A program made the translations under genes and the position numbers. Under the pieces are notes generated by a model that was not told where the DNA came from, searched no databases, and was given only the letters and a program-made list of their open reading frames with translations. A stretch of 64,000 bases of DNA from Chitinophagaceae bacterium (lineage in GTDB: Bacteria; Bacteroidota; Bacteroidia; Chitinophagales; Chitinophagaceae): positions 124,001 through 188,000 of the forward strand of contig JACSRW010000032.1 in the NCBI GenBank assembly GCA_014879565.1, written 5' to 3'. Positions 11,731 to 56,719 of this stretch are shown one piece after another; the first letter of the stretch is position 1; every line of letters begins with the position of its first letter.

Positions 11731-11758
11731 GAGCCGGGAGCCGGGAGTCGGGAGCCGG
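11731..11758 (+). repeat. Heptamer array A (GAGCCGG, 4 units) at the 3' end of the DUF3467 gene
   Basis: Four contiguous 7-mers: GAGCCGG, GAGCCGG, GAGTCGG, GAGCCGG. The array begins one base after the stop of the DUF3467 gene and is in its sense orientation. The same unit type, inverted, occurs in array B at 12301-12335. Confidence 0.9.
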
Positions 11759-11833
11759 AATTTTCAGATAAATGTCTACGGAAGAAGAAAATCTAGAGAA
11801 ATGAATATGACATATGCTGATAACAGGCCAATC

Positions 11834-12196
11834 TCATAGAAATTTTTCCGGATTCTTTATCATGTAATAAATCAGTTTACCGACTTCGTTATTCAACTCT
11901 AGCAAAAGTCTGTATTGTTCGGGTGAAATATATTTAAAATCAAGGCACATATCCAGCCATACTTCGGTTTCAGCGTTTTCGGTTTCCGCATCATTCAGTT
12001 TGCTCATAAAATAATCTTTGTATTGTCGTCTTTTCCAGGATTCGGCGAGGTTGGCACATACAGACCGGGATGAGTTTCTTATCTGAGAAGTAAGGCCGTA
12101 TCTTTCCTCATTAGGGAATGCCCTGCTGATATTGAAAATCTGAATAGCCAGTTGATATGCCTTTTGATAGGCAAGCAGACTTTTAAAGTGTCCCAT
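11834..12196 (-). CDS. Four-helix-bundle protein (S23 / IVS-encoded protein family)
   Basis: The 120-residue product has the family pattern: an N-terminal LLAYQKAYQLAIQIFNISR helix, the conserved EERYGLTSQIRNSSRSVCAN block, NLAESWKRR, and a C-terminal EVGKLIYYMIK helix. Relatives include proteins encoded in 23S rRNA intervening sequences and the Avd accessory protein of diversity-generating retroelements, both small basic nucleic-acid-binding bundles. Neither a 23S rRNA gene nor a reverse transcriptase is present here, so its role is open. Both flanks carry inverted heptamer arrays that abut the neighbouring genes. Base composition of the gene is more A/T-rich than its neighbours, which fits horizontal acquisition. 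Confidence 0.88.
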   Translation of the reverse strand: MGHFKSLLAYQKAYQLAIQIFNISRAFPNEERYGLTSQIRNSSRSVCANLAESWKRRQYKDYFMSKLNDAETENAETEVWLDMCLDFKYISPEQYRLLLELNNEVGKLIYYMIKNPEKFL

Positions 12197-12300
12197 ATCA
12201 TATTCTATTTACAATTTCTCTCACTTTTTTAACTTAAAGTCTCCGTCCCCTATTTACAATGTATTTCAATGAATAACCTCCTTTCTTTAAAGTACCAAGC

Positions 12301-12335
12301 CGTCTCCCGTCTCCAGACTCCTGTCTCCCGTCTAC
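12301..12335 (-). repeat. Heptamer array B (GGAGACG, 5 units) covering the radC stop codon
   Basis: Read on the minus strand the five 7-mers are GTAGACG, GGAGACA, GGAGTCT, GGAGACG, GGAGACG. The radC stop TAG lies inside the first unit. Orientation is sense to radC and inverted relative to array A. A single further related block (CGGAGAC on the minus strand) lies at 12239-12245. Confidence 0.88.
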
Positions 12336-13024
12336 AGAATTCCTTCGTCTGCAAAACTATAATACCCCTCCTCGCTCACAATAATATGGTCCAGGACGGT
12401 GAGGTCGAGGAAGGCGGCGGCGGATTTGATTTTCGCGGTGAGCATTTCGTCGGCCCGGCTGGGACGCAGGCTGCCGGAGGGGTGATTATGGCAGAGGATC
12501 AGGCTGACCGCGTCCTGTTCCAGGGCTTTCCGGAGGATGATACGGGGATCGGCTACTGTACCGGTAATACCCCCCTCGCTGACAATCTCAAAATGGCGGA
12601 TTTTATTGGCCCGGTTAAGGTATAAAACGGCAAAGACTTCATGCCGCAGGTCCCGGAATCGCACCTGCAGATAACGGGCGATATCCTGGCTGCCCCTGAC
12701 AGGTTCCTTATCACTTAAGCGGCTGTTTTCCCGCCTCCTGCCCAGTTCCAGCGCCGCGGCTATCGTAACGGCCTTGGCTTCCCCGATACCCTTGACCCGC
12801 ATCAGTTCACGTACGGAAAGCTTGCCCAGCTCTCCCAGGTTATCCCGCCCAAGTTTCATGATTTCCCGGGCCAGGTCCAGGGCAGATTGTTTCCGGGTAC
12901 CGTTTTGGATCAGCAGGGCCAGCAGTTCGGCATTGCTGAGGTTTTCTGCACCGGAGGATAGTAGTTTTTCGCGGGGTCTTTCGTCTTTTGCCCACTGTTT
13001 AATTGAGTACTTGTGCTCTTGCAT
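12332..13024 (-). CDS. radC: RadC-family JAB/JAMM domain protein
   Basis: A 230-residue RadC homologue with an N-terminal helix-hairpin-helix-like UPF0758 region (NLSNAELLALLIQNGTR, MRVKGIGEAKAVTIAAALELG) and a C-terminal MPN/JAMM metalloprotease-like domain with the zinc motif HNHPSGSLRPSRAD (HxHx10D). RadC was once linked to DNA repair; its actual biochemical role is not established. It begins at the ATG at 13024. Its stop is embedded in heptamer array B. Length is typical for the family. Confidence 0.93.
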   Translation of the reverse strand: MQEHKYSIKQWAKDERPREKLLSSGAENLSNAELLALLIQNGTRKQSALDLAREIMKLGRDNLGELGKLSVRELMRVKGIGEAKAVTIAAALELGRRRENSRLSDKEPVRGSQDIARYLQVRFRDLRHEVFAVLYLNRANKIRHFEIVSEGGITGTVADPRIILRKALEQDAVSLILCHNHPSGSLRPSRADEMLTAKIKSAAAFLDLTVLDHIIVSEEGYYSFADEGIL

Positions 13025-13120
13025 GCAACAAGGTTAGGTAATATTTTTACCCCTGTAAATACCACTTTGTGGTAATACAAGGCCCGTTCGATATCCACCC
13101 TTTGAAGACATTAAAATCTG

Positions 13121-13348
13121 ATGCGTATGAAAACCAGATCACTCAGCCCTGTGGGCTCATTGCACCCGGTCATCTTCTTTGTGGTAGTCTATGTGGTGGC
13201 CCTGCTGCTCTCCATTTTTATCTGTTCAGCCCTTTTCCATGCCATTAATGGTTCATCCCGGAGTACCACTCAGGAAGTGCCTGTGGAAAAGTCTGTGCCG
13301 GCCGGCAGCCCGGTAATGGCAGCCAGTACAGTGGCCTATTCGCGCTGA
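13121..13348 (+). CDS. Small single-pass membrane protein, hypothetical
   Basis: A 75-residue open frame with one strong transmembrane segment at about residues 17-42 (HPVIFFVVVYVVALLLSIFI) and a polar tail. A second in-frame ATG at 13127 is possible. I do not recognise a family. It is kept because the codon pattern resembles neighbouring genes, nothing is encoded opposite it, and it lies in an otherwise unexplained 400-nt space between radC (divergent) and prs. It may still be a chance reading frame. Confidence 0.45.
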   Translation: MRMKTRSLSPVGSLHPVIFFVVVYVVALLLSIFICSALFHAINGSSRSTTQEVPVEKSVPAGSPVMAASTVAYSR

Positions 13349-14376: not shown

Positions 14377-14394
14377 AACAATAAACAACATACA

Positions 14395-16566: not shown

Positions 16567-18633
16567 ATGACCGACACATCCATATTACTCAGGGCTTACC
16601 GGCTGATGTGCCAGACGCTGGCCATGGCTGACCTCTATGAAGCCAACAGGGCTATTTGCAAATATGTACACTCCACATCCCGTGGCCATGAAGCAATCCA
16701 GCTGGCTGCTGCTTTTCAGTTACAGCCGCAGGATTTTGTGAGTCCCTATTACCGGGATGAGAGTATGCTGCAGGGGCTGGGTTTTACTCCCTATGAGCAA
16801 ATGCTTCAGCTCCTGGCCAAAAGAGATGATATTTTCTCAGGTGGCCGGGAATACTATTCACATCCCAGCTACCGCGGCAACGACAAACCCCTGATCATAC
16901 ATCAGAGCAGCGCTACCGGGATGCAGGCCATTCCCACTACCGGGATAGCCCAGGGCATCCGGTTCTGGGAAAAAGCAGACCCCGCAAGGATCCGGAAAGG
17001 CGAACAGGGAGAGCCTCCTATAGTGCTTTGTTCAATGGGGGATGCCAGTGTTACAGAAGGAGAAGTATCGGAAGCCATGCAGTTTGCCGTACTGAAGCAA
17101 TTGCCTGTTATTTACCTCGTACAGGATAATAACTGGGGCATCAGCGTTTCCGCCGGCGAAGCCCGGGCGATGAACGCGTTTGAATATGTGGCCGGCTTCA
17201 AGGGGATGAACAGGGTGCAGGTGGATGGAAGCGATTTTGAAGCCTCCTATGAAATCATGCGGGAGGTTTGCGATTTTGTCCGCAAAGAAAGGAAGCCCTG
17301 TCTGGTACATGCCGAAACACCGCTGCTGGGACACCATACCAGCGGGGTGCGTAAAGACTTCTACCGGAGTCAGGTGGATTGGGAGAAACATGCCAAAAAT
17401 GACCCAATACCCAAACTGCGTCAAAAATTATTGGCAAGGGGTGTTTCGCAGGCAGAACTGGATGGGATTGAAAAGGAGGCGGCCCTACTCGTAAAAAATG
17501 ATTTTACCCGGGCCGTGTCAGCACCGGAGCCCGATCCGGTAACCGTGACGGACCATGTGTTCCGGCCCGCCCCGGTGATTACAGAAAAAGGGGAACGGAG
17601 CCCGGCGGGTGCGGAAAAAGTGCTGATGGTGGATGCCGCTCTCTATGCGATCCGGGAATTGATGGAAGATAACCCGGAAATGATATTATACGGACAGGAT
17701 GTAGGCAAACGGCTGGGGGGAGTTTTCAGGGAAGCCGCCACACTCGCTGAACAGTTCGGGGATCACCGGGTATTTAATACCGCTATACAGGAAGCGTATA
17801 TTGTCGGTTCCACCATCGGACTGAATGCTGTCGGTATCAAACCGGTGGTGGAAGTTCAGTTTGCTGACTATATCTATCCGGGCTTTAACCAGCTGGTAAC
17901 AGAAATATCCAAAAGCTGCTACCTGACAATGGGTAAATTCCCTGTCTCTATGGTATTAAGGGTGCCCATCGGCGCATATGGCGGCGGCGGACCTTATCAT
18001 AGCGGCAGTGTGGAAACAACCTTATTATCCGTTAAAGGAATAAAAGTGGTGTATCCTTCCAATGCAGCGGATATGAAAGGACTGATGAAGGCGGCTTACC
18101 AGGATGGAAATCCGGTTGTCATGCTGGAACATAAAGGCCTTTACTGGAGTAAGGTTCCCGGAACAGAAGAGGCCAAAACGATTGAACCTTCCCGGGATTA
18201 TATTATACCACTGGGTAAAGCCAGTATTGTTCTTGCGGCTGATGCGTCTGCGGTTAAAAACGGGGACTCCTGTTTACTGATAACATATGGTATGGGTGTT
18301 TATTGGGCCAAAGCCGGAGTGAAAAATTTTCCCGGCCAGGTAGAAATAATGGATTTGCGTACCTTATTCCCCCTGGATGAAGAACTGATATTTGACAGAG
18401 TGAAAGTGCATGGAAAGTGCCTTATTCTTACAGAAGAACAACAATATAATTCCTTTGCCGAAGCCCTTGCCGGCCGGATTACAAAAGCCTGTTTCTCTTT
18501 CCTGGATGCGCCGGTGGAAGTGCTGGGCGCGCTCAACCTGCCCGCCGTGCCAATGAATGCCGGGCTGGAAAAAGCCATGTTGCCCGGACCGGAGAAAGTG
18601 GCGGAAAGGGTTGAAGAAATGTTGAGAAGTTGA
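16567..18633 (+). CDS. 2-oxoacid dehydrogenase E1, fused alpha and beta subunits
   Basis: A thiamine-diphosphate E1 that decarboxylates a 2-oxoacid (branched-chain or pyruvate) for transfer to lipoyl-E2. The first half, about 1-335, is the alpha subunit with the ThDP/Mg motif MGDASVTEGEVSEAM...NNWGIS and the E1 alpha signature RGHEAIQLAAAF-like (SRGHEAIQLAAAFQLQP). The second half, about 355-688, is the beta subunit (ILYGQDVGKRLGGVFREA, VEVQFADYIYPGFNQLV, the transketolase C-domain DLRTLFPLDEELI). The fusion is a familiar Bacteroidota form. The frame is open from a TTG at 16558, but ATG 16567 is preferred. The C-terminal codons and the stop TGA lie within an octamer repeat array, so the last residues (MLRS) are repeat-encoded. 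E2/E3 genes are not nearby. Confidence 0.93.
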   Translation: MTDTSILLRAYRLMCQTLAMADLYEANRAICKYVHSTSRGHEAIQLAAAFQLQPQDFVSPYYRDESMLQGLGFTPYEQMLQLLAKRDDIFSGGREYYSHPSYRGNDKPLIIHQSSATGMQAIPTTGIAQGIRFWEKADPARIRKGEQGEPPIVLCSMGDASVTEGEVSEAMQFAVLKQLPVIYLVQDNNWGISVSAGEARAMNAFEYVAGFKGMNRVQVDGSDFEASYEIMREVCDFVRKERKPCLVHAETPLLGHHTSGVRKDFYRSQVDWEKHAKNDPIPKLRQKLLARGVSQAELDGIEKEAALLVKNDFTRAVSAPEPDPVTVTDHVFRPAPVITEKGERSPAGAEKVLMVDAALYAIRELMEDNPEMILYGQDVGKRLGGVFREAATLAEQFGDHRVFNTAIQEAYIVGSTIGLNAVGIKPVVEVQFADYIYPGFNQLVTEISKSCYLTMGKFPVSMVLRVPIGAYGGGGPYHSGSVETTLLSVKGIKVVYPSNAADMKGLMKAAYQDGNPVVMLEHKGLYWSKVPGTEEAKTIEPSRDYIIPLGKASIVLAADASAVKNGDSCLLITYGMGVYWAKAGVKNFPGQVEIMDLRTLFPLDEELIFDRVKVHGKCLILTEEQQYNSFAEALAGRITKACFSFLDAPVEVLGALNLPAVPMNAGLEKAMLPGPEKVAERVEEMLRS

Positions 18634-18652
18634 GAGGTTGAGGGGTTGAGTG
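18621..18652 (+). repeat. Octamer array C (GTTGAGnn, 4 units) covering the E1 stop codon
   Basis: Units GTTGAGAA, GTTGAGAG, GTTGAGGG, GTTGAGTG. The E1 stop TGA (18631-18633) is inside the second unit. Orientation is sense to the gene. The same octamer type recurs at 45881 and 53305. Confidence 0.92.
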
Positions 18653-18692: not shown

Positions 18693-19412
18693 ATGCTTTC
18701 GGATGATCAAATACAAGAGTTGTATCACTTTGTGGAAAAGAAACAGGTGAGGTACTATGATATACAAACGGAACTGGTGAGTCACCTGTCTTCCGCCATT
18801 GAAATACGGATGAAACAGGATCCGGGTCTGGATTTTGCCCAGGCACTCGAAAAAGTGTATAAAGGTTATGGCATTTCCGGATTTTCCCAGATAGTACGGG
18901 AAAAGGAGGAGGCCGTTACAGAAAGCCAGCGCCGGATTTTTTACCAGTTTGTACATGCACAGTTCCGGCTTCCGGTGCTGCTGATGATACCGGTAACCGC
19001 ATTCCTGCTGGAAAGAATAATTTTTTACGGAGGTGAGATAGCCCTGGCGATTATGTTTATCTCCCTGTTGCTGGGTGCATTACTGCTGACCTTTATCACC
19101 GGAGCCCGTCTCCGGCGGATCCGTAAACAACACAGCAAACAACTCGTGATAGCCCGGTACCTTTATCAGTCCGACTGGATTTATGCGCCGTTCTACCTGG
19201 CTGTTATCGGTAATTTTTTGTACAGGAAGGAATTTTATACCATGCTGGCTGAACATACAGCTGCCAGAATAATTACGGCTCTGCTGCTTTCAGTGTATAT
19301 TACTGTGTTGCTGGCTCACTACCGTACCTTCAAAAAAGTAGTGCTTCAGATTGAAGAGGTGTTCAGTAATCTACAAACAAAAAACGGGAACCTTACTTCA
19401 GGTCCGGTTTAA
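18693..19412 (+). CDS. Integral membrane protein with N-terminal helical domain, unknown function
   Basis: A 239-residue protein. Residues 1-80 form a soluble helical region ([51 protein letters not shown]) similar in style to the HAAS/DUF1700 domain found in front of membrane segments. Four or so transmembrane helices follow (about 93-110, 115-135, 165-180, 193-212). Related unnamed proteins are frequent in Bacteroidota; I know of no assigned function. The last 20 nt overlap the 3' end of the convergent aspS gene. Confidence 0.75.
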
Positions 19413-21219
19413 TCTGTAATTCGTCAAACTGTTTCTGGTCAATGGTAGCGGGTGCGTCAAGCATTACATCGCGTCCTGAATTGTTTTTCGGGAAAGCGAT
19501 AAAATCACGGATGCTTTCACTGCCGCCCAGGATCGCGCAAAGCCGGTCAAATCCAAACGCGATACCTCCATGCGGGGGCGCGCCGTATTCAAAAGCACCG
19601 AGCAGGAATCCGAATTTGTGCTGCTGTTCTTCCTTGTCCATACCCAGGGCTGCAAACATTTTCTCTTGCAGTTCCCGCTGGTAAATCCGGATAGAACCAC
19701 CGCCGATTTCATTCCCGTTCAGTACCATGTCATAGGCATTCGCCTTGATATTGGCATACGGATGCTGCAGATATTCCGCTGCATTTTCTATCACCGGATT
19801 GTTCTGAATCATGGTCTCAATCTGGGAAGGCTTGGGGGAAGTAAATGGATGGTGACGGGCCACCCAGCGGTTCCCTTCCTCATCATATTCAAACAAGGGG
19901 AAGTCAAGTACCCAGAGTAATTTAAACTCATCCTCTTTTCGTAACCCCAGTCTTTTGCCCATTTCCAGCCGCAGTTCACTCATGGCCTTGCGGGTTCTTT
20001 CTTCGGTACCGGCCAGCAGCAGCACCAGGTCACCCGCCCGGGCGCCGGCAGCGTCGGCGATAGCCTTCAGCCTTTCTTCGGAGTAGAATTTATCCACGCT
20101 GCTCTTATAGGTGCCATCTGTATTACATTTAATAAACACCAGTCCTTTCATGCCGATCTGGGGACGTTTTACCCATTCAGTCAGTTCATCGGTTTGTTTG
20201 CGGCTGTATTCACTGCAACCGGGGACGGCAATGGCCAGTACGGTTTCGGCTTCATCAAACACTTTGAAGTCCGCGCCCTCAATCAGGGTTGTTTGTGCCT
20301 TTTTGTTTACATATACGGATGCCGGCTTTTTCAGATTGAGCAGCTGCATGCCGAAACGAATATCCGGTTTGTCGTTGCCATACTGCCACATGGCATCTTC
20401 CCAGGTCATACGCTCCACAGCCTCCGTGTAGTCAATGCCCTTTACTTCTTTGAAGATGGATTTGATCAGTCCTTCAAACATGTTCAGGATATCTTCCTGC
20501 TCTACGAAAGCCATTTCACAGTCAATCTGCGTGAATTCCGGTTGCCGGTCGGCCCGCAGGTCTTCATCGCGGAAACATTTTACAATCTGGTAGTACCGGT
20601 CGTAGCCGCTTACCATCAGCAGCTGTTTGAAGGTTTGAGGGGACTGGGGCAGGGCATAAAACTGGCCGGGATTCATCCGGGAGGGGACCACAAAATCGCG
20701 GGCACCTTCCGGGGTGGATTTGATCAGGAAGGGGGTTTCAATATCCATGAAACCCTGCTGATGCAGGTAATTACGGGCCGCCCGGTTAACTGCATAGCGC
20801 AGTTCAAGATTCTTTTTAACCGCATTCCGCCGAAGATCAAGAAAACGGTATTTCATCCGCAGATCATCACCGCCATCTGTGTCGTCCTGAATGGTAAAGG
20901 GAGGTACGGCTGATTTATTCAGTATGCGGAAAGAACTCACCAGTATTTCGATTTCACCGGTGGGCAGATTCGGATTTTTATTACTCCGTTCATTCACAGC
21001 ACCGGTGGCCTGCAGTACATATTCCCGGCCAAGGGGGTTTTCTTCCAGCTGTTTATTCAGTTCTTCCCCGAATAAAAGCTGGGTGATTCCGTAACGGTCG
21101 CGCAGGTCCACAAAGGTGATGGCGCCGAATTTACGGACGGTTTGTACCCAGCCGGAAAGTGTGACCGTTTTACCGGCATCCGCCAGTCTTAATTCGCCGC
21201 AGGTATGTGTTCTGTACAT
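19393..21219 (-). CDS. aspS: Aspartyl-tRNA synthetase
   Basis: A class II synthetase charging tRNA-Asp. The product has the N-terminal OB-fold ([24 protein letters not shown]), motif 2 region [18 protein letters not shown], a GAD insertion domain, and motif 3 GIAFGFDRL. An in-frame upstream ATG at 21297 would add 26 residues largely encoded by a repeat array; the ATG at 21219 ([10 protein letters not shown]) is the normal AspRS start. 608 residues is normal for the bacterial type. The leader contains octamer array D, and a -7 box lies at 21286-21293. The 3' end overlaps the convergent membrane-protein gene by 20 nt. Confidence 0.97.
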
Positions 21220-21224
21220 GGTAA

Positions 21225-21256
21225 GTTGAAAAGTTGACAGGTTGAAAAGTTGACAA
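21225..21256 (+). repeat. Octamer array D (GTTGAAAA/GTTGACAG, 4 units) in the aspS leader
   Basis: Units GTTGAAAA, GTTGACAG, GTTGAAAA, GTTGACAA, ending five bases before the aspS ATG and antisense to it. This is the only intergenic array in the window located at a 5' end. Confidence 0.9.
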
Positions 21257-21285
21257 GGGGCCGTAAAGGCCGGATTTGCCGGGGG

Positions 21286-26400: not shown

Positions 26401-29400
26401 TGATCCGGAGTGTCCATTTTTCGGTGGCTCCTGGTTCCGTTTTATCGCGGTAGCTCAGATAGTCCACCTGCAGGTCTTTATTACTCCAGGGAACCAGCAT
26501 GCGGTAACTCTGCTGGTACACACGGTTATGTTTGACAAATACCCAGCTTACGCCAAATCCGCCGCGGTCATCTTCTGTAACAGGGAAGGAAAATATTTTT
26601 CTTTCTTCAGACAGATTAAGGGCAGTAAATTTTTTTGCAAAATATCCGTCAGACGGGTTATACCGGTTTATACCCTGTACCAGGTACAGATTCTCCGCGC
26701 TGCTGCCCAGTTCCACCCGGGCCGTGTCACCGGGTTCGGCGGTGGTTTTTTGCTGGCCTGTCCAGAGATATTCCGACCGGTTCAGCCGGCCGTTTTTTTC
26801 ATCTGTCAGTTCCATGTATTTAACATCCTTCACTTCATCTCCGTTCTCCGCGCTGGCTGTTATTTCCACTTTATAAAATCCCGGCTCTCTTTTCCCGCTC
26901 CCCACTCTCCATTCCCCACTCTCCACTTTCCACTCGCCACTTTCCACTTTCCATGCTCCTTCCTCCCAGCTCTCCATGTCCGATTCATTGTCATATTCAT
27001 CATGCGGGAAGGCCCTGACATATTCTTCTTTATGCAATACAAACTGATCAGGGCGTTCCCAGTAGCGGTTGCGGATCAGTCTTTTCTCTTCTTTCAGCCG
27101 GCTGATACGAACCTGCACACTGGTTTTAACCGGTTCCTGGTTCAGGTTTTCTGTGCGAATGTTGAATGATTTCAGGCTGTCGGCGGCCATAACCGGTGGA
27201 ACCGTAACATTCAGTGTAAAGGATTTATAACTTACCGGTACAATGAGTTCCCCGCTGCGGGTTTCGCCATTGATATCGGTTACGTCAGCATAAACCGTGT
27301 AATCAAATACCGGGTCAAAGCGGGTCTCCACTTTTTTATCCGGCAGGGCGGTAAAGTCAATTGTAAACTTTCCGTCTTCGCCGGTTTGGGTTTCGCCATG
27401 TGTTATTTCCTGTGATGCAGAGGGGGGCATCCACCATTTGCGGAACAGCCAGGGATAAAGGAAACGGGCTTTCCGGACCACGCGGTATTTTACCCTGGCT
27501 CCGTTTATATTATTGCCGGCATAGGCTTTTGCAATACCGGTTACTTTTATGGAATCATTGATTGTATAAGTGCCTTTCAGTTTTTCATACTCCACATAAA
27601 ACTTGGGCCGTTTGTATTCTTCCACCCGGAATTCGGCGAGACCGTTTTCATTTTTTGTATAAATACTGAAGGCGCCGTTCAGGGTTCCTGAAGGCAGCCG
27701 GAACTTTCCCGAAAAAGAGCCAAAATCGTTCGTTTTCACTTTCAGGCTGTCTATATCCTGGTAATTGGCATCCCGCAGGTAAAGGGTGCTGCTGTATTCC
27801 TGCCGCACACCCGCCCTTCTTCCCCCGGGGTCTTTCCGGAGAACGATTCCCTTGAAATGCAGCGTTTGTCCGGGCCGGTAGATAGAACGGTCAGTGAAGA
27901 GATGAATTCGCGTACTTTCTTTTTCACTGTTTGCTCCGGAGTAATAGTAATCATTCTCTGTTTCCGTCATGAACAGCTTATCTTTTCCATGGCGGATTTC
28001 CAGGAGGAAACTGTTCCGGGTATGATTTTCAGGATCCATTCTTTTTTCCAGCACGAATTCTCCCTTTGCCCCGGTGGTATAAAGAGCACCTTTTGTATTC
28101 AGGTACTTTGATTTTTTATAATCATACTGGCGCCACCAAACCTGTACATTGGCACCTGCCAGGGGCTGGCCGCTTTCCCGGTCAAGCACAAAATAATTTT
28201 CTGCCTGGTTGATATAGCTGATAGCGGATACATAGAAATAACGGGCACCCAGGAGGGTGTTTTTAGACGCCGGATTTTCCTGGTCGCTGGCAAGCAGTAT
28301 ATATTCTCCGGCAGGTAATCCGTCTACTTTTATTTCTGTACTGTGTTCCTGCAGATCTTTGGTGTCCGGAAGGGACTGCCACCATGTTTTCAGGGCGGTT
28401 GCTTTCAGCAGGGTGGGCCAGAAATGTTCATTGTACTGGTTTTCCAGCGCTTCCCGTAGCTTTTCATCCGCTTTAATCAGCCGCAGGTGCAGACCGGTGA
28501 TAGCCCGGTATTTGAGCAGGGCCCGGAAGGGAAGATCCGGACTATTCACTTTTTCCAGCTGGAAAGAGAAGCTTTTCTGTTTCAGTTGCAGCAGCAGGTT
28601 CCAGGCATTGATTTTTCCTTCGGAACTGTCTTTCTGCAATTGAAGCTTTTCACAGATTTCACGGGCTTTTATCCGGTCATAGCGATTGGTACTGTCGCCG
28701 TAGGGTTTGTATTGCTGCCCTCTTTCATTGTAGATTTCTGCCAGCAGGTACCAGGCCTGTGCGGCGGCAGGCAGGTTTTCGTACTGACGGGCGATATGGT
28801 TCACCGCATTGTAGTACAATTCCTCCCTTTCCGGGTGGATGGAATTTTCATTTACAAACTGTAAACGTTTCAGGTCGGCATCAATCAGGGCATCCGGTTT
28901 TGTGTCGGTAAGATGAAAACGGATCAGTTGCTGGTAAAGCAGCAGGGCTTTATGTTGAAGGGAGAGCGAATCAGGGCTGGTAAATTTTCTCTTGACAAAG
29001 TCTGCGGCGGGGTCAAAGGCTTCCGTTCCACTGATCTCAAATACCGCTGCCGGTTTAGTCAGATCCTCCTCACCACTTTCAAAATATTCAAGGGCTTCAT
29101 GGGCCAGCAGGTCAAAGAGGGTGGGGCGGAGATGGCGGACATTTCCTTTAATCAGCAGGGCATCCCAGGGTTCCAGTCGGGTGGCCTGCAGCGCCTTACT
29201 GTCTTTCAGGGAAAGCAGGTAGAGGGCTGATATTTTTTTGTGAAAGTCTTCCGCGTCCCAGGTTGCAATATCCGTTTTACTGAATGTTACTGTCCGGGTG
29301 CGGTCCATCATTTCCCATCGGTTATTGTTGTAATAGCGGAGGTACTGCCCGGCCAGCAGGCTGTTCAGGATGGCAGCGGAAATACCTGTACTGGTCTTCA

Positions 29401-29983: not shown

Positions 29984-30706
29984 ATGAAAAAAATCTTTAC
30001 ACTTTTTATCAGTTCCCTGTTTTCCCTTTCCCTGCTGGCTTTTGACGGCTCAAGGCTGAGTATTTCATCTTTTGCCAAAGGCAAGGAATTGAAAATTGAA
30101 GTGGATGGCCGGTTATTTACTATGAAAAATAACAGTATTACCCTGGGTAATATGCGGGATGGCCATCACAAAATCATCATTTTCCGGGAAACAAAACGAA
30201 AGGGTAACGGAAATGGTTTTGGCCGCCAGGATGAAATTGTCTATACCGGCAATGTTCTTCTGCGCCGCGGTTTTCATACAGACATTACCGTTAACCGTTT
30301 TGGCAAGGTAATGATTGATGAGCGCCGTATTGACCGCAATGATGACTGGTACCATGACGAGGACGATTATTATGATGATGACCGCGGAAATGGTGGCTGG
30401 AACGGTGGCTATGGCAATGTGATGAGGGGATATGAGTTTGAATCTGTTAAGGAATCCCTGCGGAAGGAATGGTTTGAAGCTAACCGGCTGAAGTCCGCCA
30501 AATTCATCATTGACCAGCATAACTTCACCACCCAGCAGGTGAAAGAACTGATGTTGCTCTTTACCTTTGAGAACAACAAGCTCGAGATTGCAAAATACGC
30601 ATACAGCAAAACTGTTGACAAACAGAACTATTATCAGCTGAATGAGGTGCTGATGTTTGGTTCGAGTAAAGAGGAGCTGATGAGGTTTGTGAAGAGGGGG
30701 GGATGA
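29984..30706 (+). CDS. DUF4476 domain protein, secreted
   Basis: A 240-residue protein with a signal peptide (MKKIFTLFISSLFSLSLLAF), an N-terminal beta-rich part (LKIEVDGRLFTMKNNSITL; HKIIIFRETKR), an acidic Gly/Asp/Tyr-rich linker at about 118-145 (DDWYHDEDDYYDDDRGNGG), and a C-terminal helical DUF4476 domain from about 155 (RLKSAKFIIDQHNFTTQQV, YAYSKTVDKQNYYQLNEV). DUF4476 is a common Bacteroidota envelope domain without known function. The gene ends close to a heptamer array. Confidence 0.88.
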   Translation: MKKIFTLFISSLFSLSLLAFDGSRLSISSFAKGKELKIEVDGRLFTMKNNSITLGNMRDGHHKIIIFRETKRKGNGNGFGRQDEIVYTGNVLLRRGFHTDITVNRFGKVMIDERRIDRNDDWYHDEDDYYDDDRGNGGWNGGYGNVMRGYEFESVKESLRKEWFEANRLKSAKFIIDQHNFTTQQVKELMLLFTFENNKLEIAKYAYSKTVDKQNYYQLNEVLMFGSSKEELMRFVKRGG

Positions 30707-30716: not shown

Positions 30717-30744
30717 ATGAGTAATGAGTAATCAGTAATGAGTA
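30717..30744 (+). repeat. Heptamer array (ATGAGTA, 4 units) after the DUF4476 gene
   Basis: Units ATGAGTA, ATGAGTA, ATCAGTA, ATGAGTA, starting 10 nt after the stop. The unit recurs inverted at 30832-30880 on the other side of a hairpin. Confidence 0.9.
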
Positions 30745-30774
30745 AGGTACAAACCTTGAAGAGTTATTAAAAAG

Positions 30775-30831: not shown

Positions 30832-30880
30832 ATTACTCATTATTGATTACTCATTACTGAGTACTCATTACTTTTCACTC
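30832..30880 (-). repeat. Heptamer array (GAGTAAT, 7 units) after sucD
   Basis: Minus-strand units include GAGTGAA, AAGTAAT, GAGTACT, CAGTAAT, GAGTAAT, CAATAAT, GAGTAAT. It starts 10 nt after the sucD stop, sense to sucD, and mirrors the array at 30717-30744. Confidence 0.9.
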
Positions 30881-38661: not shown

Positions 38662-38701
38662 ATGAACTAGTTAACTAGTCCACTTGTTAATCGGTTAACT
38701 A
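38662..38701 (-). repeat. Degenerate octamer array (TAGTTAAC, 5 units) covering the ALDH stop codon
   Basis: Minus-strand units TAGTTAAC, CGATTAAC, AAGTGGAC, TAGTTAAC, TAGTTCAT. The ALDH stop TAA is inside the first unit. Orientation is sense to the ALDH gene. Confidence 0.7.
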
Positions 38702-44540: not shown

Positions 44541-45875
44541 ATGAAAAAGATATTTTTCACATTTCTGCTGGCCTTCGGAGCCCTTCAGCTCTTTTCCCAG
44601 GCCAATGTGTTGCCGGCTCCGGCGCAAAAAGGAGTCATGCTGGTAAAAAATGCCATCATACACGTGGGTAACGGTACGGTAATTGAAAACGGTACCGTAC
44701 TAATCAAAGACGGGAAAATTGAAAAAGTGGGCCGCGACCTTCCGGTACCCGAAGGCGTAACTGAAATCATGGATGCAGGGGGCAAACACCTCTATCCGGG
44801 ATTGATGCTGCCGGTCAGCAACCTGGGACTTATTGAAATCAGCAGTATCCGGGCTTCCAATGATGCGCGGGAGATCGGCGACATGAACCCGAATGTACGG
44901 AGTATTGTGGCCTACAATACAGATTCCAAAGTAATCAATACCCTCCGGTCAAACGGAATCCTGTCCGCCAACATCGTACCCCAGGGATCATTCCTGGCGG
45001 GCTCTTCTTCAGTGGTACAACTGGATGCCTGGAACTGGCAGGATGCTTCCTTAAAAACAGACGGTGGAATGCATCTGTATATGCCCAGCCTGATGCCCCG
45101 GATGGGTTTTGGCCGCAGGGGTGGAATGCCCGGCGGGCCGAATGCCGGTGCCGTATCAGATCCTGTAAAGGAAGGCCTGGAACAGATTGAAAACCTGAAG
45201 GCTTTTTTCCGGGAAGCCAAAGCCTATCTCAGCGCTCCGGGCCGGGAAGAAGTGAACCTGAAATTTGAAGCGGTAAAGGATCTGCTGGCGAAAAAGCAGA
45301 AATTCTATGTTCACGCCAATACCGTAAAACAAATGCTGGTGGCCCTTGATTTTGTCAGGGAATTCGGGTTTGAACTGGTATTGGTCGGGGCCAGTGAAAG
45401 CTGGCAGATCGCTGACCTGCTGAAACAGCATAATGTTTCCGTAATCCTGCAGCAGATGCACAGTTTGCCTACTACTACCGATGACGATGTTGATCAGCCG
45501 TATAAATCAGCAGCCGCCCTGCAAAAAGCGGGGGTACTCTTCGCTATTTCTGATGACGATTCACAAACCAGGGGGCGCAACCTGGCATTTAATGCCGGTA
45601 CCGCTGTTGCGTATGGATTATCCAAAGAAGAAGCGCTTGCCGCAATTACCCTTAATGCCGCGAAACTGATGGGAGTGGCGGATAAAACCGGCAGCATTGA
45701 ACCGGGCAAGGAAGCCAGTTTTATTATCAGTTCCGGTGATATCCTGGATATGGCTACCAGCAATGTCACCGATGCCTTTATACAAGGCCGGAAAGTAAAC
45801 CTGGATGATAAACAGAAACAGCTCAGTGACCGCTATGAGCAGAAGTATGAACTGAAGCAGAAGAAAGGATTCTGA
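44541..45875 (+). CDS. Secreted amidohydrolase-like protein without the HxH metal motif
   Basis: A 444-residue secreted protein (MKKIFFTFLLAFGALQLFSQ signal) of the amidohydrolase superfamily, similar to the first domain of its upstream neighbour. The beta-sandwich and barrel landmarks are present (AIIHVGNGTVIENGTVLIKDG, LYPGLMLPVSNLGLIEISS, SIEPGKEASFIISSGD), but the usual HxH after YPGL is replaced by PVS, so the binuclear metal site is incomplete. Later positions still show H (KFYVHANTVK) and D (AISDDDSQTRG). It may be a non-catalytic partner or use another metal arrangement. The genes are 18 nt apart. An octamer array and a strong hairpin follow. Confidence 0.85.
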   Translation: MKKIFFTFLLAFGALQLFSQANVLPAPAQKGVMLVKNAIIHVGNGTVIENGTVLIKDGKIEKVGRDLPVPEGVTEIMDAGGKHLYPGLMLPVSNLGLIEISSIRASNDAREIGDMNPNVRSIVAYNTDSKVINTLRSNGILSANIVPQGSFLAGSSSVVQLDAWNWQDASLKTDGGMHLYMPSLMPRMGFGRRGGMPGGPNAGAVSDPVKEGLEQIENLKAFFREAKAYLSAPGREEVNLKFEAVKDLLAKKQKFYVHANTVKQMLVALDFVREFGFELVLVGASESWQIADLLKQHNVSVILQQMHSLPTTTDDDVDQPYKSAAALQKAGVLFAISDDDSQTRGRNLAFNAGTAVAYGLSKEEALAAITLNAAKLMGVADKTGSIEPGKEASFIISSGDILDMATSNVTDAFIQGRKVNLDDKQKQLSDRYEQKYELKQKKGF

Positions 45876-45880
45876 TAGGA

Positions 45881-45920
45881 GTTGAGGGGTTGAGAGGTTG
45901 AGGGGTTGAGAGGTTGAGAA
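45881..45920 (+). repeat. Octamer array (GTTGAGGG/GTTGAGAG, 5 units) after the amidohydrolase genes
   Basis: Units GTTGAGGG, GTTGAGAG, GTTGAGGG, GTTGAGAG, GTTGAGAA, starting 5 nt after the stop, in sense orientation. Confidence 0.92.
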
Positions 45921-52097: not shown

Positions 52098-53309
52098 ATG
52101 GCAGCAGCACTTTCGCATGAACAACTGACAGCATTGGCCCGTGAATTCGGAACCCCGCTTTATGTCTACCAGGCAGACCGGATCGGTGAACAATATCAAA
52201 AACTGACTTCAGCATTCAAAGGAACGGATGTCCGTTTTTTTTATGCAGCCAAAGCGCTTACGAATCTCTCCATTCTTCATTATATCCGGGATACCGGTTG
52301 CGGGGTAGATTGCAGTTCATACAATGAAGTGCAACTGGCCCTTCATGCAGGATTTAAACCGGCCAATATTCTCTACACCTCCAACAATGTTTCTTTTGAA
52401 GAAATATGTGCCGTTCAGGCCACCGGCGCGCATATGAATATTGACAGCCTTTCCAATCTCCGCAAATTCGGGGAGAAGTTCGGGCATACGGTGCCGGTGG
52501 GGGTCAGGTTACGCCCCAATATTATGGCCGGGGGGAATCTCAAAATCTCTACGGGCCATGATGAAAGCAAGTTTGGTATACCGGTTGAACAGTTGCCTGA
52601 ACTCCTGGACCTGATAGCGGAAACCAGTCTGCATATTAAGACACTGCATATTCATACCGGCAGTGAAATAAAGGATGTCGAAGTGTTTGCTAAAGGCATT
52701 GAAGTACTTTTTGAGGTGGCCCGGCAATTTCCTGAAGTGGAAGTGATTGATTTGGGCGGTGGCTTTAAAGTACCGTATAAACCGGGAGAAGAGGGAACCG
52801 ATATTCCGGCCCTGGGAAAAAAAGTGAAAGAGGAATTTGACAGCCTGGAAAAAAATACCGGCCGTCATTACCAGGTCTGGTTTGAACCGGGCAAGTACAT
52901 GGTTAGTGAGTGTGGTTATTTGCTGACAAAGGTGAATGTGCTGAAAAACACCGGAAGTATTGTTTTTGCCGGGGTGGATACGGGCCTCAATCACCTGATC
53001 CGGCCGATGTTTTACGGCGCCTATCACGCCATTGAAAATTGCAGCAACCCGGACGGTGTAGTACATACTTACCATGTTGCCGGGAATATTTGTGAAACGG
53101 ACAATTTTGCAGAAAACCGTGCTTTACCTGAAATCCGGGAAGGTGATATCCTGGCTATCCGGAATGCAGGCGCCTACTGCTTCGAAATGTCATCCCATTA
53201 TAATGCCCGTTTTAAACCCGCCGAAGTAATGATTGAAAACGGGAAAGCCCGGCTTATCCGGAGAAGAGATGTGCTGGAGGACTTGCTTAGAGGGCAGGAG
53301 AGAGGTTGA
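52098..53309 (+). CDS. lysA: Diaminopimelate decarboxylase
   Basis: A PLP enzyme making lysine from meso-diaminopimelate. The 403-residue fold-III barrel has the Schiff-base lysine in FFYAAKALTN, HIHTGSEI, the glycine loop DLGGGFKVPY, and a C-terminal substrate motif that reads CETDNF in place of the usual CESGD-like sequence. A TATCTTCG box at 52085 is five bases from the ATG, directly after the scpB terminator. The stop codon TGA lies inside the first unit of a 13-unit octamer array, the longest in the window. Confidence 0.94.
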   Translation: MAAALSHEQLTALAREFGTPLYVYQADRIGEQYQKLTSAFKGTDVRFFYAAKALTNLSILHYIRDTGCGVDCSSYNEVQLALHAGFKPANILYTSNNVSFEEICAVQATGAHMNIDSLSNLRKFGEKFGHTVPVGVRLRPNIMAGGNLKISTGHDESKFGIPVEQLPELLDLIAETSLHIKTLHIHTGSEIKDVEVFAKGIEVLFEVARQFPEVEVIDLGGGFKVPYKPGEEGTDIPALGKKVKEEFDSLEKNTGRHYQVWFEPGKYMVSECGYLLTKVNVLKNTGSIVFAGVDTGLNHLIRPMFYGAYHAIENCSNPDGVVHTYHVAGNICETDNFAENRALPEIREGDILAIRNAGAYCFEMSSHYNARFKPAEVMIENGKARLIRRRDVLEDLLRGQERG

Positions 53310-53408
53310 GGGGTTGAGAAGTTGAGGGGTTGAGAAGTTGAGGGGTTGAGAAGTTGAGAGGTTGAGAAGTTGAGGGGTTGAGAAGTTGAGAGGTTGAGGA
53401 GTTGAGGG
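53305..53408 (+). repeat. Octamer array (GTTGAGGG/GTTGAGAA, 13 units) covering the lysA stop codon
   Basis: Thirteen contiguous 8-mers of the form GTTGAGnn, with nn being GG, AA, AG or GA and the first units alternating GG/AA. The lysA stop TGA (53307-53309) is in unit 1. Sense orientation. It is followed by the different array at 53425. Confidence 0.95.
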
Positions 53409-53424
53409 GTTTGATGTTTGGGTG

Positions 53425-53543
53425 TTGGTTCTTGGCTCTTTGGCTCTTGGTTCTTTGGTTCTTGGTTCTTTGGTTCTTGGTTCTTTGGCTCTTTGGTTCT
53501 TGGTTCTTGGTTCTTTGGCTCTTTGGTTTCTGGTTCTTTCTTC
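53425..53543 (-). repeat. Mixed 7/8-mer array (GAACCAA / GAGCCAAA, about 17 units) at the 3' end of the DUF6263-like gene
   Basis: On the plus strand TTGGTTC, TTGGCTC and TTTGGCTC-type units alternate between 7 and 8 nt with an optional extra T. The array ends directly at the stop codon of the convergent gene (53544) and is in that gene's sense orientation. Confidence 0.93.
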
Positions 53544-54422
53544 TTACTCTGCCTTTACCCGTATCACACTGGTAGACTTTGAGGTCAGCGGAATATCCCC
53601 CATAAAGGAAGCTGTGGTTCCCGCAGATTCAGTAGTGGTTGTTTTCTCCCGGATCAGCATAGTGGCTTTGTCCAGGATTATTTTCCCCGTTGTTTTATGG
53701 GTCATTGTGGTGGTGGATGTATTGCCCATCATTTCTGCGGTGGTCACACTGCTGGAGTTACCTGTGAAATCAACAATTACCGTGCTGTCAGTAACGGAAC
53801 TGATCACATAGGTTGTTTCATATTTCTCCGTCAGGGTGGAACCGGATTCGGTCCAGGATTCGCCGGTTTTCAATCCGCCTTCTTTCGGGGGTACCACCCG
53901 GAAGAAACTGCCCTTTCCTTTTTTGGGGGGCTGAATCACCTCCAGCACTTCCTTCATCATGCCGCCAATAACAGCCATCCGGTTATCGGTGGCACTGGTG
54001 GCAAAACTGTCGGGCATACAGAGTAATACTTTTCCGTAGGGGTCAATGATCATATCGTATTTTTTCTCCAGCAGTTCTTTAACGGGTTTCCCCATTTGTC
54101 CGTTCAGATCTTTGGGATTCTCTGAGTCAAAATTCATTTTCTGCCCCATCCCGTCAAACCGGAAAGAGAGCTGACGGGTACTGTGCCGCAGACTGTGATT
54201 ATCTTCTGTGGTATTCGTTACCTGGTATTGATGCCGGCAGGCGGCATCCACATTAAAATCAATGGCCTGCCCCATAGCCTGCTGGGAAATGGTGGTTTTT
54301 GTCTCCAGACTGATGGCCAGTATCTGCCCCTGCTGTAACGTGATTTTGCCGTCAACAGTTTGAGCGGAAATATTTTGAAATAATAAAAAGGCGGCGGTTA
54401 CAAAGGGGAAGAAAGGTTTCAT
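53544..54422 (-). CDS. DUF6263-like secreted protein
   Basis: A 292-residue protein with a signal peptide (FFPFVTAAFLLFQNISAQ) and a beta-rich mature part that is unusually rich in Ser/Thr. Landmarks are LQQGQILAISLETKTTISQQ, KKYDMIIDPYGKVLLCMPD, LKTGESWTESGSTLTEKYET and a C-terminal KTTGKIILDKATMLIREK. The layout fits the DUF6263 family of Bacteroidota envelope proteins, but I am not certain of the family name. Function unknown. Its stop is directly followed by a 7/8-mer array. Confidence 0.78.
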   Translation of the reverse strand: MKPFFPFVTAAFLLFQNISAQTVDGKITLQQGQILAISLETKTTISQQAMGQAIDFNVDAACRHQYQVTNTTEDNHSLRHSTRQLSFRFDGMGQKMNFDSENPKDLNGQMGKPVKELLEKKYDMIIDPYGKVLLCMPDSFATSATDNRMAVIGGMMKEVLEVIQPPKKGKGSFFRVVPPKEGGLKTGESWTESGSTLTEKYETTYVISSVTDSTVIVDFTGNSSSVTTAEMMGNTSTTTMTHKTTGKIILDKATMLIREKTTTTESAGTTASFMGDIPLTSKSTSVIRVKAE

Positions 54423-54588
54423 ACGAGAAATAATTTAGCGCTGTAAGGCACACAAAGTTGACGAATCCGGTCCGGATTCGTTGCACCCGGTGGAAAAATA
54501 TTCATTTTAAAAAAGGCGTCCGGCCCGGGCTGCTTTTGCGCCGAAGTGTTTACTTTTAAAATAACATATACACCCTAAACTTAGTTTT

Positions 54589-56193
54589 ATGCCGATACGT
54601 ATGACCGATGATCCGGTGGATCCCAATCAGCACAATGATAACAGCGGAGGGGGCGGGGGCCGTCGTCCGGTTTTTCCCGGTGGAGGAGGGGGCGGAGGCC
54701 TCGGATCTTTATTACCCCTTTTATTAGGACTTTTCAAGGGGAAAGGAATACTCCTGCTCCTGGTGCTTGCGGGTGGTTTGTACTTTCTCAGCCGGATCGG
54801 CGGGTGTGATCTGAACCAACTGGCTCAGCTGGCCACCGGCGGAATGCTGGATCCCCGCCAGTTTGAAAAGGCAAAAATTTATGAACCGCTCGCAGATGAT
54901 CCCAATCGTCCGGCACTGCCGGAAGCGGCCAGTCTGCAGCAATTTGCACCAGCCGTTGGCAACCAGGGGGCACAGGGATCCTGTGTGGCCTGGAGTGCGG
55001 CGTATGCGGCCAGAACCATCCTCGAATCGGCCCGCACCGGCCAGGCAGGGGATAACCTGAAATTCAGCCCGGCCTTTCTGTATAACCAGATCGGACTGGA
55101 GGGTTGCCAGGGTTCCTATATAATCCGGGCCATGGAATTTATGACCAATAAAGGCGCGGTTCCGTATGACCAGTTCCGTTATACCGACCAGGATTGCAGC
55201 CGGCAGCCGGATGATCAGTTGCAACGCGCCGCTTTACAGTATAAAATGCATGGTTTCAACCGGCTTTCCCTGGGCGAACGCAATGACGTTTTAGACCTCC
55301 ATGCCATTAAGGAAAATCTATCCCAGGGAGCGCCGGTGGTAATCGGCATGATGGTGGGACAAAGTTTTATGCAGGCTATGCAGGGGCAGGATGTTTGGGA
55401 ACCCGCGCCGGGGGATGAGAATATGATGGGTTTTGGCGGTCATGCCATGTGTGTGGTAGGTTATGATGATGCCCGGTACGGAGGCGCTTTCCTGATTATG
55501 AACAGTTGGGGACCGGAATGGGGACAAAACGGTTTTGCGTGGGTGCGGTACAGTGATTTCAATTATTATGTTCGGGAAGCATACGGCCTCGATCCAATGG
55601 CCAGAACGGGCGAAGCGGCGGCGCAGCCTTTTTCCTGTGAAGTGGGACTGGTACAGGTGGAATACCAGGGAAACAAAACGGTTACTGCGGGTTATATTCC
55701 GCTGCGGAATGCAGGCAGCGGACGTTTTGTAACCAGCCAGCCCGTAGCCATCGGCAGTAAGTTTAAAATGGAAGTCAGGAATAACACGGAGTGTTATATC
55801 TATGTATTCGGTAAGGAAACGGATGGCACCAGTTATACATTATTCCCCTACCCGACTAAAGAAGATCCTTCTCAAACAAGGTATTCCGCTTTTTGCGGCA
55901 TTACGGGTTACCGTCTTTTTCCCCGGGATAAAAGTATGACACCGGACAGTATCGGCACACGGGATGTAATCGCCGTAGTACTCAGCCGGGAAGAGCTGGA
56001 TTGGGCAACCCTGAACAGGGAAATCAGCCGGAATCCGCAAATGGATTATTCAAGCAGGCTCCGTTCGGCCCTGTCAGGGAAAATCAGTCGTACAGTCCGT
56101 GCAGGTAACAGCGGCAAGGGCACCATGCTGTTTGAAACAGAGGCTGGCGATAAGGGAGTCATACTCTGTACTGTTGAAATTGACAAGGAATAA
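54589..56193 (+). CDS. Membrane-anchored C1-family (papain-like) peptidase with DUF4384-like domain
   Basis: A 534-residue protein. The N-terminus is glycine-rich (GGGGGRRPVFPGGGGGGG) followed by one transmembrane helix at about 40-68 and no classical signal peptide, so the rest should face the periplasm. The papain-like catalytic set is present: Cys in NQGAQGSCVAWSAAYAAR (about 132), His in GFGGHAMCVVGYDD (about 284) and Asn in FLIMNSWGPEWGQNG (about 305). A C-terminal DUF4384-like domain follows (NNTECYIYVFGKETDG, YTLFPYP). Papain-like enzymes with this accessory domain occur in Bacteroidota but their targets are unknown. The DUF4442 gene starts 5 nt downstream. Confidence 0.87.
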   Translation: MPIRMTDDPVDPNQHNDNSGGGGGRRPVFPGGGGGGGLGSLLPLLLGLFKGKGILLLLVLAGGLYFLSRIGGCDLNQLAQLATGGMLDPRQFEKAKIYEPLADDPNRPALPEAASLQQFAPAVGNQGAQGSCVAWSAAYAARTILESARTGQAGDNLKFSPAFLYNQIGLEGCQGSYIIRAMEFMTNKGAVPYDQFRYTDQDCSRQPDDQLQRAALQYKMHGFNRLSLGERNDVLDLHAIKENLSQGAPVVIGMMVGQSFMQAMQGQDVWEPAPGDENMMGFGGHAMCVVGYDDARYGGAFLIMNSWGPEWGQNGFAWVRYSDFNYYVREAYGLDPMARTGEAAAQPFSCEVGLVQVEYQGNKTVTAGYIPLRNAGSGRFVTSQPVAIGSKFKMEVRNNTECYIYVFGKETDGTSYTLFPYPTKEDPSQTRYSAFCGITGYRLFPRDKSMTPDSIGTRDVIAVVLSREELDWATLNREISRNPQMDYSSRLRSALSGKISRTVRAGNSGKGTMLFETEAGDKGVILCTVEIDKE

Positions 56194-56198
56194 TCATC

Positions 56199-56696
56199 AT
56201 GAAAGAAACTATTTCCTCCTTTATCCGCCTGGTGAAACACCCGCTGAAGTTCCGGCTGTTCCTCCTCTATAAACTCCCGGCTGCCTATATAGCCGGGGTG
56301 CGGGTAAAAGGGATCAGTGCGGATAAAGCCGTGGTGACAGTGCCCTATAAATGGCTTTCCCAGAATCCCTTTCGCTCCACCTATTTTGCCTGTCTCAGTA
56401 TGGCGGCGGAAATGAGTACCGGAGTACTGGCCCTGGCCCGGGTTTACAGGTCAAAACCGGACGTATCCATGCTGGTAACCGGACTGGAAGCACAGTTTTT
56501 TAAAAAAGCTATTGACCGCAGTTTCTTTGTCTGTGAAGACGGGGCTGCATTCACCCGGGCGGTGGAAGAAACAAGGGCAACAGGTGAAGCCAGGGAGGTA
56601 AAGGCCCGGTCGGTAGGCAGAAATGAGGCCGGAGAAATAGTGGCGGAGTTTGTGATAACCTGGTCGTTTAAGAGGAAAGGGGGAAATGGGCAATAG
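56199..56696 (+). CDS. DUF4442 (hotdog-fold thioesterase-like) protein
   Basis: A 165-residue protein with the hotdog pattern of DUF4442: LKFRLFLLYKLPAAYIAGVRV, VTVPYKWLSQNPFRSTYFA, LSMAAEMSTGVLAL, and a C-terminal FVITWSFKRK. Related proteins are putative acyl-CoA thioesterases. It starts 5 nt after the C1 peptidase stop, so the two are one operon. The stop TAG is inside a heptamer array. Confidence 0.87.
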   Translation: MKETISSFIRLVKHPLKFRLFLLYKLPAAYIAGVRVKGISADKAVVTVPYKWLSQNPFRSTYFACLSMAAEMSTGVLALARVYRSKPDVSMLVTGLEAQFFKKAIDRSFFVCEDGAAFTRAVEETRATGEAREVKARSVGRNEAGEIVAEFVITWSFKRKGGNGQ

Positions 56697-56719
56697 GCAA
56701 TGGTGAACAGGCAATGGGC
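56685..56719 (+). repeat. Heptamer array (AATGGGC/AATAGGC, 5 units) covering the DUF4442 stop codon
   Basis: Units AATGGGC, AATAGGC, AATGGTG, AACAGGC, AATGGGC. The stop TAG (56694-56696) is in unit 2. Sense orientation. Confidence 0.85.

Follow-up and report, generated by a model that had tools for sequence, protein, structure and literature searches.

Heptamers of the GGGAATC and GGGGA(C/T)T types in Xanthomonas and Nostoc (Rehm et al. 2015, PMC4692102) and the TAACTGA direct repeats of Beggiatoaceae, Cyanobacteria and some Bacteroidetes (MacGregor 2015, PMC4679880) are the systems nearest to the tandem arrays of 7- or 8-nucleotide (nt) units reported here; a literature search returned nothing closer, and none for Chitinophaga. 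The arrays belong to a Chitinophagaceae bacterium (assembly GCA_014879565.1, 3.43 Mb in 44 contigs, hereafter G000), and twelve of them lie in the window, the 64,000-nt stretch at positions 124001-188000 of its contig 1 (JACSRW010000032.1). In the sections of the reports drawn upon here, the Rehm heptamers are dispersed over the genome, mostly noncoding and scarce between divergent genes, with 11-16% located between convergent ones. Their G-rich strand is found at most 50 bp after stop codons in sense or before start codons in antisense; the number of units differs between relatives, the neighbouring genes are of many classes and no function was found (PMC4692102). Repeats of this type are also associated with a preference for four units and with G-quadruplex formation. 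The TAACTGA repeats form intergenic heptamer arrays; in some Bacteroidetes the same gap harbors heptamers of another word, and the repeats are missing from close relatives (PMC4679880). The cyanobacterium Calothrix is cited as having several tandem heptanucleotides in one genome (in PMC4692102).

The arrays of G000 follow a comparable rule, of which the sense 3'-end pattern first seen in the window is one half: the G-rich strand (the strand with more G than C, on which all arrays are written here) reads away from the nearer open reading frame (ORF), in sense after stop codons and in antisense before start codons. The rule was examined in 79 arrays of G000 and in three close relatives, G038 (49 arrays), G012 (69) and G004 (54). 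G038 is the genome of the UWPOB_CHIT6 record, of which 400 kb, reached via locus L051, were sampled; the E1 dehydrogenase of the host is closest to Chitinophagales/Chitinophagaceae records, with 86% for UWPOB_CHIT6 and at most 82% for the rest. Gene calls come from a simple Markov caller of our own and are firm at stop codons and less certain at starts; arrays were detected with Tandem Repeats Finder (TRF) and our own detector, and the controls were Markov shuffles, reversed words and random placement. The array 5' end is the one nearer to the ORF in 70/79 (G000), 38/49 (G038), 56/69 (G012) and 46/54 (G004) arrays, and in G000 the median distance to the ORF is 9 nt from the 5' end and 111 nt from the 3' end. 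For arrays at most 20 nt from a stop, sense prevails over antisense by 37:3, 21:4, 35:3 and 20:1 in the same four genomes, and for those equally close to a start antisense prevails by 13:0, 5:1, 5:2 and 8:0. Tandem gaps of G000 exhibit both halves of the rule, the ratio of sense to antisense being 16:1 at stops and 0:9 at starts, in each case for arrays within 20 nt. The distances have their peak at -10 to +15 nt for stops and at 5-10 nt for starts. A further genome with few arrays, G042, follows the rule at 7:1.

The enrichment at sense 3' ends, as the original prediction expected, extends beyond the window. Outside it, a stop is at most 10 nt away from 26 of 70 arrays, where 500 simulations placing arrays at random in the same gaps gave a mean of 15.5 (highest value 27), and the G-rich strand is in sense in 30/32 arrays within 20 nt of a stop (30:2). 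With the window included, the values within 10 nt are 33/79 against 18.2 expected for stops and 11 against 9.5 for starts. In G038, 23/49 arrays are at most 10 nt from a stop (8.7 expected, highest simulation 16), and 21/25 of those within 20 nt are in sense. Convergent gaps hold more arrays than their base count predicts (24 against 8.7 in G000, 16 against 9.0 in G038), and divergent gaps of G000 fewer (11 against 22.1). Arrays in tandem gaps lying more than 20 nt from both genes, yet nearer the stop, display no strand bias (2:2; 3:5), so the stop-side rule is limited to abutting arrays. General base composition was considered as a cause of the rule. It was rejected after stops, where the first 10 nt of array-free gaps have a G/C skew of 0.00 in G000 and -0.05 in G038, and accepted before starts, where array-free gaps read away from the start have a skew of +0.18 and +0.21: since the 5' leaders are poor in G, the start-side orientation needs no special cause.

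Abundance was assessed in a 1.09 Mb main sample of G000, partly picked for GTTGAGRG matches, which inflates the GTTGAG share. At the lowest threshold it contains 102 arrays of period 2-24, of which 82 have a period of 7 (33 noncoding, one coding), 8 (36 and one) or 14 (11 and none); every other period is represented by at most six arrays, and one Markov shuffle gave none. Noncoding arrays thus amount to 80/82 for periods 7, 8 and 14 and to 69/71 for periods 7 and 8. A 464 kb sample that was not picked for arrays and includes the window holds 16 arrays of period 6-9, 15 of them noncoding, against none in the Markov null. Contigs C4 (at its end), C5 (at its start) and C13 (at its end) terminate within arrays, and draft genomes may therefore undercount them.

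Each genome uses a small vocabulary of mostly G-rich words. The idea that every locus has its own unit is wrong, as a few words recur genome-wide at many loci: among 89 G000 arrays, the families are GTTGAG (34), GAGTAAT (20), GGGAGNC (14), GTGGAAA (7), AGAACCAA (5), GCAAATGT (5) and others (4). The GTTGAGRG doublet has 114 matches in G000 and its reversed-word control none, and the presence of one word at dozens of unlinked loci supports the spreading repeat that had been proposed as one explanation. At C10:200-600 (L136) of G000 a tandem repeat of about 100 nt holds GTTGAG arrays and a GTCACCCTG...GTGTCGAAGGGTGA element, and C1:117906-118049 and C19:53352-53544 carry inward-facing GAGTAAT pairs with common diverged flanks, as if one larger element had been copied.

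Vocabularies differ among near relatives, and the array sites turn over. The GTTGAGRG doublet has a single match (in G021) in 37 other genomes and two in G038. The GAAGTACG doublet is found 35 times in G038, 29 in G012 and 24 in G004, as compared to once in G000, and the GTTGATAR doublet, common in G038, G012 or G004, has a single match in G000. Triplets of GGGAGNC and GAGTAAT abound in G000 and G004 and also occur in G012, and GAGTAATGAGTAATGAGTAA occurs in 9 of 395 genomes of the phylum, including G000. In 80 short loci from related genomes, noncoding arrays again favour periods 7 (nine) and 8 (four), mostly with other words. Among 155 gene pairs conserved between G000 and G038, arrays of period 5-24 are found in neither genome in 137, in G000 only in 5, in G038 only in 10 and in both in 3; only 3 of the 8 conserved gaps with a G000 array thus carry one in G038. 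In all 15 one-sided pairs the gap is longer in the array-bearing genome, the G038 sample having longer gaps overall (median 79 against 65). In G038, the C1 gap orthologous to G000 C1:109322 has a dispersed repeat of another type, ATTTCGAGCG.AGCGAGAAATCT, beside its arrays. Between G004 and G012, which are 88% identical over 30 kb, 8/15 G004 arrays overlap a G012 array, 7/15 indels of at least 3 nt touching arrays are exact unit multiples against about 2 expected at random, and at one site different words were seen by eye in the same place.

As far as the cited report describes them, the Rehm heptamers and these arrays are alike in being dispersed, mostly noncoding and scarce between divergent genes, in having unit numbers that vary between relatives, neighbours of many functional classes and no function found, and in their position and strand rule, which is found in G000, G038, G012 and G004 and, at stops, not in G043 (Flavihumibacter stibioxidans). 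The original prediction knew of no described system; the same rule had in fact been reported for GGGNATC heptamers (PMC4692102). None of the main words (GTTGAGRG, GAGTAAT, GGGAGNC, GTGGARA and AGAACCAA) is a GGGNATC or GGGGA(C/T)T unit; GGGAGNC is similar, not identical. The arrays also differ in that several words occur together, 8-nt units and words without G runs are included, near relatives have different vocabularies and two sister species possess a fixed 3' tail. The convergent-gap excess is a further difference, as far as the 11-16% of that report allows the comparison. The TAACTGA repeats, in the portion of their description used here, lie mostly just upstream of starts, whereas the present arrays are in sense after stops or have their G-rich strand antisense before starts. 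Likeness to the Calothrix repeats, presumably those named STRR, lies in several tandem heptanucleotides per genome. Archaeal Borg tandem repeats (PMC9879509), again compared through part of their description, are likewise rapidly evolving and recently formed but belong to an extrachromosomal element. Beside phase-variation repeats, which switch a surface gene from within its reading frame or promoter, the observations are that 69/71 period-7/8 arrays are noncoding and that most of the 13 scanned window proteins are enzymes or of unknown function. The arrays are not CRISPR (clustered regularly interspaced short palindromic repeats) arrays, as their units are contiguous and lack unique spacers.

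We favour, at about even confidence, the reading that the arrays are lineage-specific, fast-turnover simple-sequence repeats with a 7- or 8-nt unit that spread and slip and are placed by selection. It starts from the period, the intergenic bias, the word families, the differing vocabularies, presence and absence between relatives and the excess of whole-unit length changes, all directly observed; copying of the word, slippage of its copies and selection on their location are most likely what lies behind them. Some process would copy a word from locus to locus, each copy would then lengthen or shorten through replication slippage, and selection would set where copies survive. Just past a stop codon an array would harm neither protein nor promoter, and its word could even provide the stop; antisense copies before starts would survive because the 5' leaders of these genomes are poor in G. 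The sense bias at stops invites a guess: the array would be transcribed there, and a C-rich, G-poor RNA right behind the ribosome would load Rho. Alternatively, and equally as a guess, G-rich RNA may promote expansion via R-loops.

Several observations weigh against this reading. Plain slippage cannot carry a word to other loci, and no machinery that would do so turned up, none having been looked for. The remaining 8/15 array-touching indels between G004 and G012 are not whole units, and with only 7/15 that are, our confidence was lowered from slightly above even to even. The stop-side strand rule fails in G043 (4:5), although starts there give 5:0 and the array 5' end is nearer to the ORF in 10/14. 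The arrays have neither an age gradient nor a decayed trail beside them: unit mismatches on the ORF side and the distal side are 0.87 and 0.82 (p 0.59) in G000 and 0.72 and 0.90 (p 0.09) in G038, and likeness to the word is no higher in 3' flanks than in 5' flanks (p 0.67, 1.0) or in shuffles (p 0.16, 0.21). A model in which arrays grow from the gene end and leave an old trail was dropped, as purity gradient and flank resemblance are both absent. The conserved tail behind arrays of two sister species, detailed below, is not expected of ordinary microsatellites. Finally, the one heptamer array found inside a gene, a GTGGAAA/GTGGAGA in-frame array at 26894..26954 (minus strand) in the alpha-2-macroglobulin gene (23453-29698, minus strand), replaced sequence rather than adding to it. 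It fills a block of 74 residues. Of the 14 aligned relatives, eight, namely seven same-genus genomes and G038, have a block of exactly this length, and the remaining six one of 70-76 residues. Pure insertion, which fits the gaps (15/15 longer), was set aside for this gene, whose block length is kept. In G012 and G004 this block contains a short native forerunner at the 3' side of the array position.

The tail itself suggests another origin, in which the arrays would form the 5' portion of a small dispersed element that ends in a constant 3' tail, AACAGCCCcTnCTaAGaa, and is moved whole by an enzyme, the tail being mostly lost in G000. We regard this as possible, although unlikely. Behind arrays of two sister species a 17-nt tail is common, and AACAGCCCcTnCTaAGaa is found in G012, G004 and G038. 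The strongest 8-mer in 276 array 3' flanks of four genomes is AACAGCCC, with 32 occurrences against 0.96 expected; 30 noncoding copies lie within 40 nt behind an array, 21 in G012, 8 in G004, one in G038 and none in G000. The tail pattern AACAGCCCNTNCTAAGA occurs 26 times in G004, 21 in G012 and 4 in G445 (perhaps the same as G038), its reversed control giving 0, and in none of the other 55 of the 58 genomes searched, G000 among them. In the fetched parts of G038, G012 and G004, 32 of 50 noncoding AACAGCCCNT sites have a period-7/8 texture in the preceding 40 nt, and array-plus-tail modules chain up to four, with different words. Two such chains of AACAGCCC tails, with different words in adjacent modules, are seen at L227 (G012:C70, about 8680-9060, minus strand) and L232 (G012:C90, about 5170-5550). 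A moving element fits the main G000 family poorly: no common tail was seen by eye behind its 34 GTTGAG arrays, and no listed 6-mer occurs in more than 8 G000 array flanks. In addition, differing words join one tail, which shows no sign of folding (mean z -0.14) and has no inverted partner at up to 250 nt. The G000 sample holds a related CTNCTAAGA behind two GTGG-type arrays. Set beside miniature inverted-repeat transposable elements and repetitive extragenic palindromes, which have a conserved body with terminal inverted repeats or a palindrome, G000 arrays have no common body, and the sisters have a one-sided 17-nt tail without inverted pairs. A viral origin of the tail was rejected, the 32 viral-contig matches being judged chance: the texture of their preceding 40 nt (mean 0.31, highest 0.47) is close to that of random 40-mers (0.29, 95th percentile 0.41).

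A functional 3'-end element, transcribed behind the stop codon and serving to stabilise the mRNA, to terminate it or, through stops in all frames, to prevent readthrough, is rather unlikely. The excesses within 10 nt of stops and in convergent gaps and the sense bias at stops, given above, are what such an element would produce; moreover, 30 of 40 stop-side words in G000 contain at least two stop codons, and a hairpin flanked by one inverted pair of GAGTAAT arrays persists in G038, the pair folding far better than shuffles (z -8.5). Stop codon usage is shifted in genes with arrays. Array genes of G000 (n=42) end in TGA, TAG and TAA in 24, 9 and 9 cases, as compared to 309, 69 and 417 of 795 other genes (p 0.02 and 0.01 for more TGA and TAG, 1e-4 for less TAA); in G038, TAG ends 14/25 array genes against 29/284 others (p 2e-7), and TGA is no different (p 0.49). 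TTGA-bearing words pair with a TGA stop (10/13 in G000) and GGGAGNC with TAG (6/10 in G000, 6/6 in G038). Words lacking stop codons nevertheless obey the rule (8:2 in G000, 6:1 in G038), which weakens the backup-stop version. The processing or termination signal offered by the original prediction fares poorly as well: the same arrays occur antisense before starts, only 3/8 conserved array gaps carry an array in G038, and the 13 window proteins have no common theme. The arrays are direct repeats and not intrinsic terminators, the GC hairpins being separate and beside some arrays.

Templated repeat addition is an improbable but specific alternative. An enzyme would start at a fixed short motif, TTCTTAGnAGGGGCTGTT, complementary to the G012 and G004 tail, and add a genome-specific 7- or 8-nt word toward the gene until a stop or start codon, rewriting the sequence en route, in a manner somewhat like that of telomerase. 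If so, a changed template would alter the word throughout a species at once, at every locus. Such a system would explain why 3' ends stay fixed behind different words and the 5' end abuts the ORF, along with the species-wide vocabularies, the changed stop codons (above all the TAG of G038) and the in-place rewriting of the macroglobulin gene. No enzyme turned up, none having been sought; the tail is absent from the main G000 family, and array gaps are longer, not rewritten at constant length.

Two further readings are very improbable. G-quadruplex elements, as considered for the GGGNATC repeats, would agree with the position and strand rule shared with those repeats in the report's account (PMC4692102) and with the G runs of many words, but arrays without any GGG or CCC obey the rule at stops (12:1 in G000, 11:3 in G038), and GAGTAAT and AGAACCAA have no G runs. 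An artefact of composition or annotation, in which purine-rich gene ends and calls stopping inside repeats simulate anchoring, could draw on the use of our own caller and on the preference of stop-overlapping arrays for stop-containing words; against it, arrays starting 0-20 nt past the stop alone obey the rule (18:1 in G000 outside the window, 12:2 in G038), array-free gaps have no skew after stops, and protein length is within 5 residues of the ortholog in 13/16 G000 array genes with a listed one.

The twelve window arrays were found where they had been claimed, TRF reporting period 7/8 or multiples at or near every coordinate; its starts are those given here, except 45881 for the amidohydrolase array. 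Rows of period 7/8 scoring at least 45 number 10, against none in 30 first-order Markov shuffles, and those scoring at least 30 number 15, against a shuffle mean of 2.4 and a maximum of 5. An Rfam search of the window at gathering scores returned only tRNA and no array match. Ten arrays lie at stops, as predicted. In five genes the stop is inside the array: a GGAGACGGGAGAC... array (12300..12338, minus strand) spans the stop of radC (12332-13024, minus), a GTTGAGRG array (18621..18650, plus) the last four codons and stop of the E1 dehydrogenase gene (16567-18633, plus), and a GTTGAGRG array with a 16-nt dimer GAGAAGTTGAGGGGTT (53300..53411, plus) the stop of a lysA-like decarboxylase gene (52098-53309, plus). 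These start 7, 13 and 10 nt, respectively, before the end of the stop codon according to our own detector. The E1 C-terminal length is equal in 80/80 related loci. For the other two, the evidence consists of TRF and ORF coordinates: a weak AACTAGTT array (38665..38701) at the stop of the aldehyde dehydrogenase gene (38695-40206, minus; score 32, 62% matches) and a weak GGGCAAT array (56681..56719, plus) spanning the stop of the DUF4442 gene (56199-56696, plus; score 36, 65%), both near noise on score alone. The AACTAGTT word is nearly self-complementary, so the sense of this array is undefined and the predicted sense orientation of all ten falls short by one. The distance of 0-10 nt predicted for the other five holds for four: GAGCCGG x4 (11731..11758, plus), 1 nt past the DUF3467 gene stop (11421-11729, plus); GAGTAAT (30717..30745, plus), 10 nt past the DUF4476 gene stop (29984-30706, plus); GTTGAGRG (45877..45919, plus), 1 nt past the amidohydrolase gene stop (44541-45875, plus) and followed by a GC-rich hairpin; and AGAACCA/AGAACCAA (53425..53539, minus), 4 nt past the DUF6263 gene stop (53544-54422, minus). 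The fifth, GAGTAAT (30832..30872, minus), lies 18 nt past the CoA-ligase gene stop (30891-31766, minus); it is the right half of an inward-facing pair flanking a hairpin, of which the 30717 array is the left half. Two arrays are away from 3' ends, that of the macroglobulin gene and a GTTGAAAAGTTGACAG array (21223..21257, plus) that precedes by 5 nt the start called for an aspartyl-tRNA-synthetase-like gene (19393-21219, minus) and has its G-rich strand antisense to this gene.

The kind of repeat is already known, and the present data extend it: the rule is tied neither to one word nor to G runs, 8-nt units obey it, closely related genomes use different vocabularies, and in two sisters a single tail is joined to many words. 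In four close Chitinophagaceae genomes many words obey the rule, whether or not they have G runs, and the same rule was described for Xanthomonas and Nostoc; this speaks against quadruplexes and in favour of some more general cause. How a word comes to be spread or replaced genome-wide, when it is common to dozens of unlinked loci and yet differs between near relatives, is not explained by microsatellite slippage; the fixed tail of the two sister species and the 88%-identical pair G004 and G012 provide a handle on it.

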